Source: Phycicoccus elongatus Lp2 (GTDB lineage Bacteria > Actinomycetota > Actinomycetes > Actinomycetales > Dermatophilaceae). From it: DNA of 44,355 bases. Within the stretch, counting starts at the first letter, position 1, and every line of letters begins with the position of its first letter. Below, one piece after another: positions 2,175-28,536 of the stretch. A model generated the notes under the pieces. The model did not search any database. It had not been told where the DNA came from and worked only from the letters and a program-made list of their open reading frames with translations. The DNA lies in NCBI RefSeq assembly GCF_000367525.1, contig NZ_HF570956.1, forward strand, positions 133,322-177,676, in the 5' to 3' direction. The position numbers and the translations under genes were made by a program.

Positions 2175-4459
<2,285 letters not shown>

Positions 4460-5775: not shown

Positions 5776-6026
5776 GGCGACCTGACGATCACGACGACCC
5801 TTGAGCCCTTCGGCCCGGCCACAGCGATCATCCTCACCGACGACCAGGTTGCCGCCCTCGGCGCCGGCAAGCGCGCCCCACTGCGGCACAGGCGTTCGCG
5901 AAGCTCGCATTCACCTACCGCAAGGAGTATGCCGTGTGGGTCGCCGAGGCCAAGCGCGAGGGGACCCGTGAGCGACGGGTCGGTCAGGCGCTCGAGATGC
6001 TGAAGGCGGGGAAGACCCGCTCGTGA
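5773..6026 (+). pseudogene. DUF1905/YdeI-like protein remnant with internal deletion and frameshift
   Basis: The first part (GDLTITTTLEPFGPATAIILTDDQVAALGAGKRAP in pieces, from 5773 to about 5880) matches the start of DUF1905-domain proteins. The last part (AFAKLAFTYRKEY and EAKREGTRERRVGQALEMLKAGK, about 5893-6023, another frame) matches their YdeI/OmpD-associated C-terminus. In intact relatives roughly 60-80 residues separate these blocks. Here they are joined directly and out of frame, so the centre is deleted. A GTG at 5770 is an alternative start. The promoter upstream still looks good. Confidence 0.75.
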
Positions 6027-13823: not shown

Positions 13824-13985
13824 TCAGTCCCACGTCGGCTTGCAGAGGCTGTTTGCCTGGTCGCTGAGGGCGTCGAGCGTTGCCCGCAGCGCCGGTGAGC
13901 GGCTGCCGGAGCGGACGAGGGTGAAGAGCTGACGCCGAACCTCGCCCTCGGCGATGTCGCGCACCGCGAGCGCCGGGTCGTCATG
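13824..13985 (-). pseudogene. C-terminal remnant of a LysR-family regulator
   Basis: Read on the minus strand, about 50 codons give DPALAVRDIAEGEVRRQLFTL, then VRSGSRSPALRATLDAL, ending ...LCKPTWD and TGA at 13826-13824. This is the end of a LysR substrate-binding domain. The N-terminal helix-turn-helix and most of the sensor domain are absent. The remnant abuts an EamA remnant on the other strand at about 13985, as if the shared middle of a divergent pair had been removed. Confidence 0.65.
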
Positions 13986-14351
13986 ACCGGAGCCACGGTG
14001 ACGACGGGCCTGCGAGTCGCGCTCACCGGGGGGATCGACTTCGCCTTCCCCCCGATCACGTGGATCTGGATCGCTGGGATCGTCCTGGTCTCAACCGTCG
14101 GGGCCATGGTCCTCTTCGTCATGGGGCTCCAGCGCACCGGCCCCACCAATGCGGCCATCCTCTCGACCTTCGAGCCGGTCGTCACGGCCGGCCTGGCTGC
14201 CGCGCTGCTCGGCGAGCAGCTCACTCCCGTCCAGTTGGCCGGAGCCGGGCTGGTGCTCGCGGCGGCGGTGGTGCTCCAACTCCGGCGGCGCCCCGCGCCC
14301 GTCGTGCCTGGATGTCGCGATCGTGCCCGAGGTGATGGACTCTGCTCATGA
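13983..14351 (+). pseudogene. C-terminal remnant of an EamA (DMT superfamily) transporter
   Basis: The frame reads ITWIWIAGIVLVSTVGAMVLF, MGLQRTGPTNAAILSTFEPV and LLGEQLTPVQLAGAGLVLAAA. This is the second half of the second EamA domain (three to four helices of ten). The first two thirds are gone. The original stop survives and overlaps the next gene's ATG (ATGA at 14348-14351), so this was the first gene of an operon with the B3/4 protein. An ATG at 13983 could still allow expression of a fragment and translational coupling, but not transport. Confidence 0.75.
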
Positions 14352-15064: not shown

Positions 15065-15182
15065 GCGCCACCGATTGTGCGACCGGGGTGGGCGCGGCAG
15101 GCTCAGCCGTATACCGCGTCCTCACCTCTCCGTGCGCCCCACCGCGATCGCCTCCTCGGTCCTGGCCCTCCTGACCTGCCCG

Positions 15183-15334
15183 TCGGTGCGTGCTATGGCG
15201 AGAACGGCGCGTCCTATGTCAACGACAAGGTGCTGCAGAGCAACCTCGACCCGTTCAACCCCTCGAACAGCTCGTTCCACCCCAGCGCCAAGGGCTACAA
15301 CGGCTACTTCCAGGCGCTGATCAACAACCAGTGA
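15183..15334 (+). pseudogene. C-terminal remnant of an SGNH/GDSL hydrolase
   Basis: About 50 codons read YGENGASYVNDKVLQSNLDPF, then SSFHPSAKGYNGYFQAL, ending INNQ and TGA. F/S-HP-(N/S)xxGhxxYxxal is the catalytic Asp/His block at the end of secreted SGNH hydrolases; here SFHPSAKG keeps the His. The N-terminal GDSL block and oxyanion residues are absent, so it is a fragment. The breakpoint is near 15183, about 120 nt after the B3/4 gene. Confidence 0.65.
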
Positions 15335-19475: not shown

Positions 19476-19508
19476 GCCGGACACCCACATGGTTGTCCCT
19501 TCTCTCCC

Positions 19509-19594
19509 GGAACAAACGCGGCATCCGGGAACAACGCCGGTGGCTGGGGAAGCAGGTGCTGGGAACAATCGCGGCATTCGGGAACAACGCCGGT
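19509..19594. repeat. two direct 33-bp repeats
   Basis: Copies at 19509-19541 and 19562-19594 agree at 31 of 33 positions. Each contains two sub-units of the form GGGAACAA..CGC.GG (GGAACAAACGCGG/GGAACAATCGCGG and GGGAACAACGCCGG). The period is 53 bp. The second copy ends on the stop codon of the rimK remnant. It could be a terminator-like element or a dispersed intergenic repeat. Confidence 0.7.
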
Positions 19595-20335
19595 CAGGAC
19601 TCGCGACTCGGCACCTTGGGCAGCTTGCGGACCCGGGTCGGGCGCTTCTTGCGCTGCGGGATGAGGTCGCGCATCTCCTCGAGCCGCCCGAAGCAGAGCA
19701 GGCGGGTCGCCGTCCTCGAGCTTGCGGTTGCTGTGCGGGTTGGGCATCACGGTCGTCCCGCGGTGCAGGGTGAGCACCGAGATGTCGCGGTCGCGCAGGC
19801 CGGACTCGCCGAGGGTCTTGCCGACGAGGTCGGCACCTGGGTGGACGACGAGCTCGGCCACCCCGTAGCCGGTCGACACCGTCAGCCGTTGGCGCACGTC
19901 GATCTCGGGGAAGCCGGTCTGGTTCGCGATGTGGTCGATGATCGCGCCGGCGACGTCGAGGTTGGTCGCGGCCTCGATGCCCTGCAGGCCGGGCGAGGAG
20001 TTGACCTCCATGACGAGCGGCCCGTCGTTGCCCTCGAGCATGTCGACGCCGGCGACCCGCAGGCCCATGATCTGCGCGGCCCGCACCGCCGTCTCCTCAT
20101 AGGTCGCGTCCAACTCGACCGGCTCCACGCGCCCACCGCGGTGGACATTGGACCGGAACTCATCGCCCTGCGCCACCCGCCGCATCGCCGCGACGACACG
20201 GTCGCCGACGACGATCGCCCGGATGTCGCGACCCTTGCTCTCCTGACGAAGGCCTGGATGAGCACCTGCTGGTTCGTGCCGTGCAGGGTCTCGATGATCG
20301 CCTCGGCGACCTTGGCCGGGACCACGTCTCGTTCA
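19594..20335 (-). pseudogene. rimK: rimK-type alpha-L-glutamate ligase, truncated and frameshifted
   Basis: The minus strand encodes the C-terminal part of a RimK ATP-grasp ligase: [23 protein letters not shown], then in the next frame [25 protein letters not shown] and [14 protein letters not shown], followed by an RCK_C-like tail ([21 protein letters not shown]). The N-terminal half before GVVPA is missing. One base is lacking near 20242 (AGGAG for AGGGAG) and one is extra near 19704 (a CCC run); correcting both gives a continuous frame ending at TGA 19596-19594. RimK enzymes add glutamate to proteins or peptides. This copy should be inactive. Confidence 0.85.
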
Positions 20336-20640
20336 CGATCCACCCGTGGCAAGCGACCGACGAGGATGCCGTCGGGCTCACGCTGCCCGTGCACGACCGA
20401 CGTTCGGTGCGGTCGTCCTCCGGCCATGCCGAGGACCGGATCGTCGTCCTCATGCGTCTCACTCTGGCGCGCCGCCGGATCACCGCCGAGGTGACCCTCA
20501 CCGACCGTGACGAGATGGGCTTTCGGATGCTCGTGGGCCGGCAGGCCCTTGAGCAGGCCTTCCTCGTGGACTCGCGACTCTCGTATGCCGGTGGGCGTCC
20601 GGCGCGCGCGACCCGCCGCAAGAACTGGGGCAGGGCATGA
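20323..20640 (+). pseudogene. C-terminal remnant of a RimB-like retropepsin (ATP-dependent zinc protease family)
   Basis: The frame reads [16 protein letters not shown], then RSVRSSSGHAEDRIVV, EVTLTDRDEMGFRMLVGRQALEQ and ends KNWGRA. RSSSGHxxxR and M.FRMLlGR.AL belong to the retropepsin-like domain found beside RimK. The N-terminal part with the catalytic D-T-G-A block is missing. The break lies at about 20318-20323, directly against the RimK break on the other strand. The original stop overlaps the next ATG (ATGA), so it was co-translated with the AstE-like hydrolase. Confidence 0.75.
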
Positions 20641-21650
20641 GCCGCCGGCGCCCCCGCGCCTCCTTCGCGATCGGCACTGTCAAGGTGCGAGCCGGCCACG
20701 CCCGCGAGGTCGGTCTGCCGATCACCCGGCTGGTCACCGGCGCCGACGTCAGCCTGCCCGTCCACGTCGTCCACGGCCGTGACGACGGGCCGACGGTCTG
20801 GATCAATGCCGCCATCCACGGCGACGAGGTCATCGGCGTCGAGGTGATCCGCCGGGTGCTCACCAAGGTCTCGCCGAAGACGATCCGCGGCACGCTGCTG
20901 GCGGTCCCGATCGTCAACGTCCTGGGCTTCATGAACGGCGACCGCTACCTACCCGACCGGCGTGACCTCAACCGATCTTTTCCCGGGTCGGCTCGGGGGT
21001 CGCTCGCGGGCCGGATCGCCAACCTGCTGATGACCGAGGTCGTCGCCAAGTGCGAGGTCGGCATCGACATGCACACCGGCTCGGACCGCCGCTCCAACCT
21101 CCCCCAGATCCGGTGCGACGTCGACGACCCGCACACCCTGGACCTGGCGCGCGCCTTCGGCGCCCCGGTCATCTTCCACGCCAAGTTGCGCGACGGTTCA
21201 CTGAGGTATGCCGCCCGCGAACGGGGCGCTCGCGTCCTGCTCTTCGAGGGCGGCGAGGCCTGGCGCTTCGACGAATGGGCCATCGAGGCGGGTGTCCGGG
21301 GGGTGCTCCGGGTGCTTGCGCACCTGGGCATGATCGAGCCGGTCGAGGATGAACCCCCTCCGCTGAGCCTGATCTGTCGTCGCTCCGGCTGGGTGCGCGC
21401 CCGGCGCACCGGGATTCTCCAGATGGAGGCCAACCTGGGCCAGGTCGTCACCGATGACGAGCGCCTCGGTGGCCTCTCGGACTCCTTCGGTCGTCGGTTG
21501 CGGCTGGTGCGCGCCAATCGGGCCGGTGTCGTCATCGGCCGCACCGAGGCGCCGCTGGTCAATCGCGGCGACGCGCTCATCCACATCGCCGAGATCGAGC
21601 AGGAGAACGAGACGCCCGGACAGGCTGAACTGGCCGAGCCGTCCGAGTAG
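20637..21650 (+). CDS. succinylglutamate desuccinylase/aspartoacylase family zinc hydrolase
   Basis: This 337-aa M14-fold deacylase has zinc ligands H61 and E64 in INAAIHGDEVIG and H146 in DMHTGSDRR, and a later FEGGEAWRFDE carrying the likely catalytic Glu. The C-terminal third (WVRARRTGILQ) resembles the barrel-sandwich domain of the family. It normally accompanies RimK and RimB-like genes, suggesting that the trio adds and removes N-linked glutamyl groups; here both partners are broken and only this gene is intact. The ATG overlaps the RimB remnant's stop. Confidence 0.85.
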   Translation: MSRRRPRASFAIGTVKVRAGHAREVGLPITRLVTGADVSLPVHVVHGRDDGPTVWINAAIHGDEVIGVEVIRRVLTKVSPKTIRGTLLAVPIVNVLGFMNGDRYLPDRRDLNRSFPGSARGSLAGRIANLLMTEVVAKCEVGIDMHTGSDRRSNLPQIRCDVDDPHTLDLARAFGAPVIFHAKLRDGSLRYAARERGARVLLFEGGEAWRFDEWAIEAGVRGVLRVLAHLGMIEPVEDEPPPLSLICRRSGWVRARRTGILQMEANLGQVVTDDERLGGLSDSFGRRLRLVRANRAGVVIGRTEAPLVNRGDALIHIAEIEQENETPGQAELAEPSE

Positions 21651-22128: not shown

Positions 22129-22137
22129 GCTCCGCTT

Positions 22138-22180
22138 GCGTCCGGCAACTTGGTTGATATCCCGTCAATCTGCCGGACGC
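22138..22180. terminator. bidirectional hairpin between convergent TPR and ASCH genes
   Basis: GCGTCCGGCA (22138-22147) pairs perfectly with TGCCGGACGC (22171-22180) across a 23-nt A/T-richer loop. The right arm overlaps the last codons of the ASCH gene. Confidence 0.6.
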
Positions 22181-25762: not shown

Positions 25763-25794
25763 GCCGAGACTGCCCAGCCACGGTCGATCGCACC

Positions 25795-25859
25795 CAGTCG
25801 AGAGGGAGCAAAACGCGGGCGGCGGACTCTCGCACCCGCGTTTTGCTCCCTCTCGACTG
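25795..25859. terminator. perfect 25-bp hairpin after the GH13 gene
   Basis: Arms 25795-25819 and 25835-25859 are exact reverse complements over 25 nt with a 15-nt loop. The stem core is GGGAGCAAAACGCGGG / CCCGCGTTTTGCTCCC. It lies 32 nt after the stop codon and the second arm supplies a TTTT run. It may be a strong terminator or a mobile or structural intergenic repeat. Confidence 0.8.
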
Positions 25860-25892
25860 CAGAGATCAGGCGAGGTTGGGGGCGCCACCCCG

Positions 25893-27857: not shown

Positions 27858-27872
27858 TAGAGTCGGTGCATG
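27858..27872 (+). promoter_or_regulatory. leaderless promoter of the SIMPL-epimerase unit
   Basis: TAGAGT (27858-27863) lies exactly 6 nt before ATG 27870, so the transcript should start at or next to the start codon. Confidence 0.45.
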
Positions 27873-28536
27873 GAGATCACCGTCAGCGGCACCGGCCGCT
27901 CGTCGCTGCGGCCCGAGCGGGCCACCTTGCACCTGACCGCCGGCTTCGAGAGCGGTGACAAGGCCGAGGCGATGTCGGAGGCGACCCGCGTCGTCAACGA
28001 GCTGAGCGCGGACCTGCGCCGCCTCAAGGAGCTCGACCCCTCCCCGACGACCTGGTCGGCGGTCCTGCCCATCGGCACCCGGTCGTGGCGGCCCGTGGAC
28101 CGACAGCGGTCAACTCGTGCCCATGCGCCACTCCGCGCACGCCCGGATCATGGTCAAGTTCCGGGACTTCCCGACGCTGGCCGGTTTTGCCGATCACTGG
28201 GGTGGACGCCCGGGCGTGACGTTGGGACACATCGAGTGGACCCTCACCGAGACCCGGCAGAAGGAGACCGAGCGCTCCGTGCTGGCCCAGGCGGTCGAGG
28301 TCGCCCGGGAGCGAGCGCAGGTGCTCGCCACGGCGGCCGGTGCCGGCGAGGTGCGCTGCCTCGAGGTCTCGGACCCCGGCATGCTCGGGCACCGGACCGA
28401 GGGCGAGCCGATGATGCTCGCGGCCAGTCGAAGCGCCTATGCCAAGGACGCCGGCGGTGGCGGCGAGGGGATCGAGATCGCACCCGAGGATGTCGACATC
28501 GAAGCCACGGTCCACGCCAGGTTCACGGCGGACTGA
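27870..28536 (+). pseudogene. SIMPL domain (DUF541) protein with a single-base frameshift
   Basis: The 5' frame reads MEITVSGTGRSSLRPERATL and, later, PTTWSAVLPIGTRSW. The 3' part continues the same protein one frame away from about 28097 (DSGQLVPMRHSAHARIMVKF, then TETRQKETERSVLAQAVEVA) to TGA 28534. One extra base in CGGCCCGTGG explains it; without it the frame is continuous and the length (about 221 aa) is normal for DUF541. It may be a recent mutation or a sequencing error, since both halves look conserved. The next gene starts 3 nt after the stop. Confidence 0.8.

Follow-up and report, generated by a model that had tools for sequence, protein, structure and literature searches.

As far as the available portions of PMC11957791 and PMC12239564 go, RimK of Pseudomonas extends the C-terminus of S6 with glutamates, which RimB, a retropepsin-like protein, removes. 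The available portions of the literature on RimK and RimB contain no description of an AstE partner of the two proteins, which is not proof that such a partner is unpublished. Iyer et al. are said to have dealt with amidoligase neighbourhoods in 2009. Here we describe a locus of a high-GC actinobacterium in which rimK and rimB are both truncated next to an intact gene for an AstE-family hydrolase, and which can be regarded as a natural knock-out snapshot of the patchily distributed rimK-rimB-astE module.

The window, by which we mean the whole stretch of 44,355 nucleotides that was analysed, corresponds to G000:C1:133322-177676 of a 3.17-Mb single-contig genome with a completeness of 99.89%. 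The Pfam scan of the window comprised 39 sequences, with 8 further ORFs left out, and that of the flanks comprised 38 short ORFs (<190 aa) from 213 kb, where genes were called at a stricter threshold than for the window. A set of 36 named loci was retrieved via AstE, and RimK and RimB pieces were sought within the fetched flanks; Intrasporangium, Serinicoccus, Ornithinimicrobium, Phycicoccus and Nocardioides are among the named records that have a related locus. In addition, 119 genomes of the family were surveyed, with the RimK piece and AstE counted at E <= 1e-30 and RimB counted by PF05618.

The rimK, rimB and astE genes

The features of the locus are the following.

19594..20316 (approximate), minus strand: rimK remnant consisting of the C-terminal part of the ATP-grasp domain and TrkA_C (Pfam, blastn, alignment)
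20314..20321, no strand: putative deletion junction (codon comparison with relatives, blastn)
~20317..20640, plus strand: rimB remnant (PF05618, retropepsin-like) that has lost the catalytic DTG portion and reads open as far as its own stop
20637..21650, plus strand: intact gene for an AstE/AspA-family zinc hydrolase (PF24827 1-192/192)

The ATP-grasp domain (PF08443) of a complete RimK ligase is only partly present in the window, where the Pfam match covers positions 84-188 of 188 and is followed by a TrkA_C domain. The loss at the 5' end amounts to ~158 of ~398 codons (medians over relatives), i.e., 40% of the gene and not the N-terminal half reported in the first-pass annotation; the two single-base frameshifts reported along with it are borne out by alignment with four intact relatives, in which the window lacks a base near 20245 and has an extra one near 19706. 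These frameshifts may be later than the deletion discussed below, or they may be read errors. A close second RimK compensating from elsewhere in the genome was considered and rejected, because a search with the RimK piece returned only one match at E <= 1e-30. Two further PF08443 matches, which lie above the cut-off and are much weaker (E = 9.4e-9 and 6.4e-6), belong to open reading frames that are 551 and 1116 aa long.

The truncation of RimB is likewise real, with a smaller part lost than the N-terminal half initially proposed: in the Intrasporangium oryzae ORF of 158 residues the F of FTIHPWQ is number 58, which puts the missing portion at about one third. The PF05618 match begins at position 42 or 48, depending on which of two scans is used, and extends to position 134 of 138. 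Of 42 relatives, 41 have a DTG[AS] motif upstream of the portion that is retained here, and the window frame has none. A second, compensating RimB was also rejected, since the profile search detected no other PF05618 match in the genome. As neither another RimB nor a second close RimK was detected, a working pathway is unlikely in this organism, the two weaker ATP-grasp matches notwithstanding.

The astE gene is intact, as originally stated. The PF24827 match is complete, and five conserved residues, which we take to be probable active-site residues, are identical in all 45 sequences compared, including the one from the window; H61, E64 and H146, probably metal ligands in an HxxE...H pattern, are among the residues identical in all 45. 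The ATG of astE overlaps the stop of rimB as ATGA, which suggests co-translation with rimB; the earlier flat statement that the two were co-translated goes further than an overlap can demonstrate. The closest solved relatives of AstE are PDB 3cdx and the N-acetyl-diaminobutyrate deacetylases 6twl and 6twm, and by analogy with these structures AstE may hydrolyse an amide that is made or trimmed by RimK and RimB. The RimK piece of the window is nearest to that of G022 (88%) and its AstE is nearest to that of Intrasporangium oryzae (79%), a possible mosaic.

Several repeats were recorded in the window. Just beyond the rimK stop lie two copies of a 27-bp dispersed repeat (19508-19534 and 19561-19587, plus strand), one of which scores as terminator-like on the rimK strand; allowing <=2 mismatches, the repeat has 13 matches in this genome, whereas 8 relatives, both sister species among them, have none. 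A short dispersed repeat at 22130-22180 recurs in four other places of the genome among the matches listed, and a REP-like palindromic repeat of ~66 bp at 25794-25860 has many matches in the genome on both strands and none listed in the sister species. Near the left end of the window, positions 148-1551 contain a nearly full-length gene for a DDE transposase (PF13701 12-427/435).

The rimK-rimB junction and the module in relatives

Related genomes, comparison with which had been suggested as a check, hold the intact module in the layout rimK<- ->rimB-astE, and their loci confirm that both genes in the window lost their 5' parts together with the shared promoter region. Homology to these relatives runs up to the junction on both sides. 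By blastn against seven of them, rimK homology stops at 20313-20317 and rimB homology starts at 20326-20339, in agreement with the earlier observation that the breaks meet near 20318-20335; when compared by codon, rimB homology starts slightly earlier, at ~20317 (GGC CGG GAC). The sequence GGCCGG (20316-20321) suits both the rimK side and the rimB side, and the exact junction, as placed by reference to the relatives, is possibly a short microhomology join.

The spacing between conserved positions on the two sides of the junction carries the main argument. From a fixed rimK codon (VAEA) to a fixed rimB codon (IHPWQ) there are 28 bases in the window compared to 675-754 in 33 relatives, i.e., 647-726 bp (median 658) are missing relative to each of the 33 that could be measured among 41 relatives with both genes (the motif patterns failed for the other 8, and some of the 33 are closely related to each other). 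Both genes are intact and adjacent in these relatives, and the extra length lies solely at the junction. Judging from this comparison, we consider it highly probable that one deletion of ~650 bp took the 5' end of rimK, the 5' end of rimB and the intergenic promoter region together. Two independent head losses were rejected as an explanation because, given the spacing, one deletion accounts for both. Since rimK and rimB diverge from one control region, a single deletion removes both heads at once, and the finding that the two genes were beheaded in the same way, described in the first-pass annotation as an odd coincidence, loses that character in view of the length present in the intact relatives.

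Comparison with the relatives shows that a block of ~650 bp, extending from just N-terminal of VAEAIIE in rimK to just N-terminal of IHPWQ in rimB, is absent as a unit, and with it the N-terminal parts of both proteins, the catalytic aspartate of RimB and the intergenic region. We propose on this basis that the locus is a decaying copy of the conserved module, whose rimK encodes a glutamate-ligase-like ATP-grasp protein. Both rimK and rimB would be dead, and astE, left without its native promoter, would persist because too little time has elapsed. On this account an accessory module that is missing from many genomes of the family would have been caught in the middle of its loss.

Of the 36 named loci, 34 contain the RimK piece and 33 the RimB piece, with astE located some kilobases away from rimB in L058, L066 and L076. 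In two loci from Acidimicrobiales (L083 and L084) rimK and astE are close together and the fetched flanks gave no RimB match, and in L043 (G022:C40:173000-187000) rimB and astE are separated by a gene that was recognized by eye as GNAT-like. The family survey detected RimB in 34 of 119 genomes, where the match covers nearly the whole profile in 33 and starts at position 42 in the genome studied here alone. The RimK piece is also present in 34 genomes, and the two occur together in 33, the exceptions being G103 (RimB only, at E <= 1e-30) and G072 (RimK only). An AstE orthologue was found in 29 genomes, all 29 with RimB, and the 85 genomes that gave no RimB match gave none to AstE either; RimB without an AstE match occurs in G082, G091, G108, G115 and G126. 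The module is an accessory one, which most sampled family genomes are without. Because AstE accompanies RimB in 29 of 29 cases and is never found apart from it in this survey, the lone AstE of the window is most simply explained as a leftover, and probably is one, without counterpart in the sample of 119 genomes. That AstE remains as the sole intact member is indeed seen at the locus; the idea that this is a meaningful outcome finds no support in its distribution.

The survey also shows other states of the module. In G103 rimB is full, rimK is gapped and astE is split, a state that may be due to read error. G072, which belongs to another genus, has a headless rimK (L098, G072:C1:2265000-2272000, ~3198-4061, minus strand) behind a gene that by eye resembles nrdB, and the family survey found no match to rimB or astE there; this is another loss, in another genus, in which rimK likewise lost its head. 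Neither of the two sister species, G001 and G002, has a match to AstE, RimB or RimK, although the missing module is weak evidence for G001, whose genome has a completeness of only 82%. G002 retains the flanking genes, and there a different gene, cupin-like by eye, is located between those for the B3/4-domain and TPR proteins; the segment is species-variable.

Neighbouring remnants and alternative readings

Further partial genes are found to the left of the locus.

5889-6026: fragment of an OmdA/YdeI-family gene (PF13376 21-60/60)
13824..13982, minus strand: possible C-terminal remnant of a LysR regulator (PF03466, E = 0.017, below the cut-off)
13986..14351, plus strand: C-terminal remnant of an EamA transporter (PF00892 51-133/135)
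15173-15334: C-terminal fragment resembling an SGNH hydrolase (by eye; no Pfam match)

The first-pass annotation counted rimK/rimB as the second divergent pair within 7 kb whose heads were lost; the other would be the LysR and EamA remnants. The remnant is clear for EamA and only suggestive for LysR, with the E value given above and no tblastn match of the tail in the loci of 11 relatives. At 39-46% identity, even the three nearest relatives of EamA are distant; among these, EamA is found head to head with a LysR-like gene, as judged by eye, in G065 and G017 and not in G056. The two remnants are likely the result of a second, separate single deletion ~6 kb from rimK/rimB. Divergent neighbours make up 35 of 222 gene pairs in 258 kb of the genome, so that two such deletions in 7 kb are not a tiny chance; the coincidence is weak and only mildly notable, the pairs having been chosen after the fact and fusions of tandem genes being harder to see. 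The OmdA and SGNH-like fragments suggest that the segment from 5.7 to 20.6 kb is decaying generally.

A reading that would also be compatible with a single deletion is that promoter-removing deletions are favoured by selection or by a local process, silencing useless genes while their 3' ends are kept. We consider this very improbable, and we attach little belief to the broader claim that deletions in the variable segments of this genome prefer promoters and 5' ends, taking divergent control regions first and letting 3' halves persist. If it were true, rimK/rimB, LysR/EamA and the headless rimK of G072 would all be instances of promoter-first gene death. The 5' part is indeed missing from RimK, RimB, EamA, OmdA and the possible LysR, the rimK of G072 is headless as well, and no clear N-terminal-only fragment was found among the 39 scanned window sequences, where the B3/4 match (2-125/174) covers the first part of the profile only and its G002 counterpart ends similarly, as seen by eye. 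However, the events are few, and a remnant of the 3' end is more readily noticed, since it retains the stop. The SIMPL-family (DUF541) gene at ~27870-28533, whose part at 28096-28533 was examined as a further beheaded gene, was rejected as such: it has a one-base frameshift near 28093 and its G002 homologue is a single open frame. A search for other head-to-head pairs with lost heads, as the first-pass annotation had suggested, yielded none in the 38 short ORFs of the 213-kb flanks, where 12 of the 38 have no Pfam match and the rest are mostly full length; the partial matches comprise one without its start (DUF3995, 37-124/124) and two without their end (acylphosphatase, 2-63/85; carbonic anhydrase, 2-73/156). 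When 258 kb of the genome were compared with contig C7 of G002, only 35 of the 111 genes called in G002 were matched, and the four split rows consist of the frameshifted SIMPL gene, one internal gap and two PAP2-like neighbours matching each other.

The age of the decay bears on two other readings. Changes at near-invariant sites number 0 of 90 in the RimK remnant, 2 of 27 in RimB and 3 of 100 in AstE; among 43 sequences no share exceeds that of RimB, which L079 equals, and AstE takes rank 5 of 45. Comparison of the RimK piece with that of G022 gives dN 0.082 and dS 0.440, which together with the unchanged RimK sites indicates that most of the rimK divergence arose under selection. These data fit a very recent decay and also one that is partly sequence or assembly error, while the deletion itself is probably not an artefact. 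There is only a small chance that the strain has intact rimK and rimB and that the ~650-bp gap and the one-base indels came from assembly. The lack of change in RimK would agree with that, as would the further one-base frameshift in the SIMPL-family gene, which points to small indel errors or very fresh mutations; yet the genome is a nearly complete single contig, family matches in the scanned window and flank ORFs are mostly full length, a 650-bp loss is unlike a base-calling error, and the EamA and OmdA remnants in the same segment resemble real decay. We give very little credence, too, to the notion that astE has become independent of the module and is retained for a separate function, with translation perhaps coupled to the open rimB remnant, which a single deletion would also allow. 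The intact gene with its five retained probable active-site residues and a rimB remnant still open into the ATGA overlap are what one would expect in that case, but AstE is missing from all 85 RimB-less genomes of the family, a recent deletion explains the intactness without selection, and no sigma-70-like promoter was detected in a scan upstream of astE, a weak test, with none expected in shuffled sequences either. The reading that we prefer is ordinary gene decay following the single deletion, which is most likely and involves no special mechanism.

Comparison with known systems

The S6 protein of E. coli has an acidic C-terminal tail. S6 was inspected in six genomes, namely three with the module intact (G010, G022 and G023), two with it broken (G000, the genome of the window, and G072) and one with none (G002), and in 6 of 6 it ends in RPGA, RPTA or RPTV, without an acidic tail. 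Consequently, the substrate of the rimK-rimB-astE module in this clade may be a molecule other than S6. The form of S6 in these six genomes and the occurrence of AstE solely with RimB (29 of 29 genomes) provide testable leads.

With the deletion pseudogenes of reductive bacterial genome evolution the locus shares partial genes that derive from a clean deletion and a location in a species-variable segment; it differs only by the accident of a divergent pair, where one deletion affects two 5' ends. With the AstE/AspA-family zinc hydrolases (3cdx, 6twl/6twm) the window protein shares the complete PF24827 domain and the probable metal ligands, whereas its subfamily occurs only with RimB among the 119 family genomes. 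The features shared with Pseudomonas RimABK, as covered in the available portions of PMC11957791, PMC12239564, PMC4741518 and PMC7343187, are an ATP-grasp RimK and a DTG retropepsin-like RimB that are encoded together. In contrast to that system, relatives of the window locus have rimK divergent from rimB and an AstE-family hydrolase gene adjoining rimB, RimK includes a TrkA_C domain, as is visible from the window remnant, S6 is without the acidic tail in the six genomes checked, and both rimK and rimB are broken in the genome described here.
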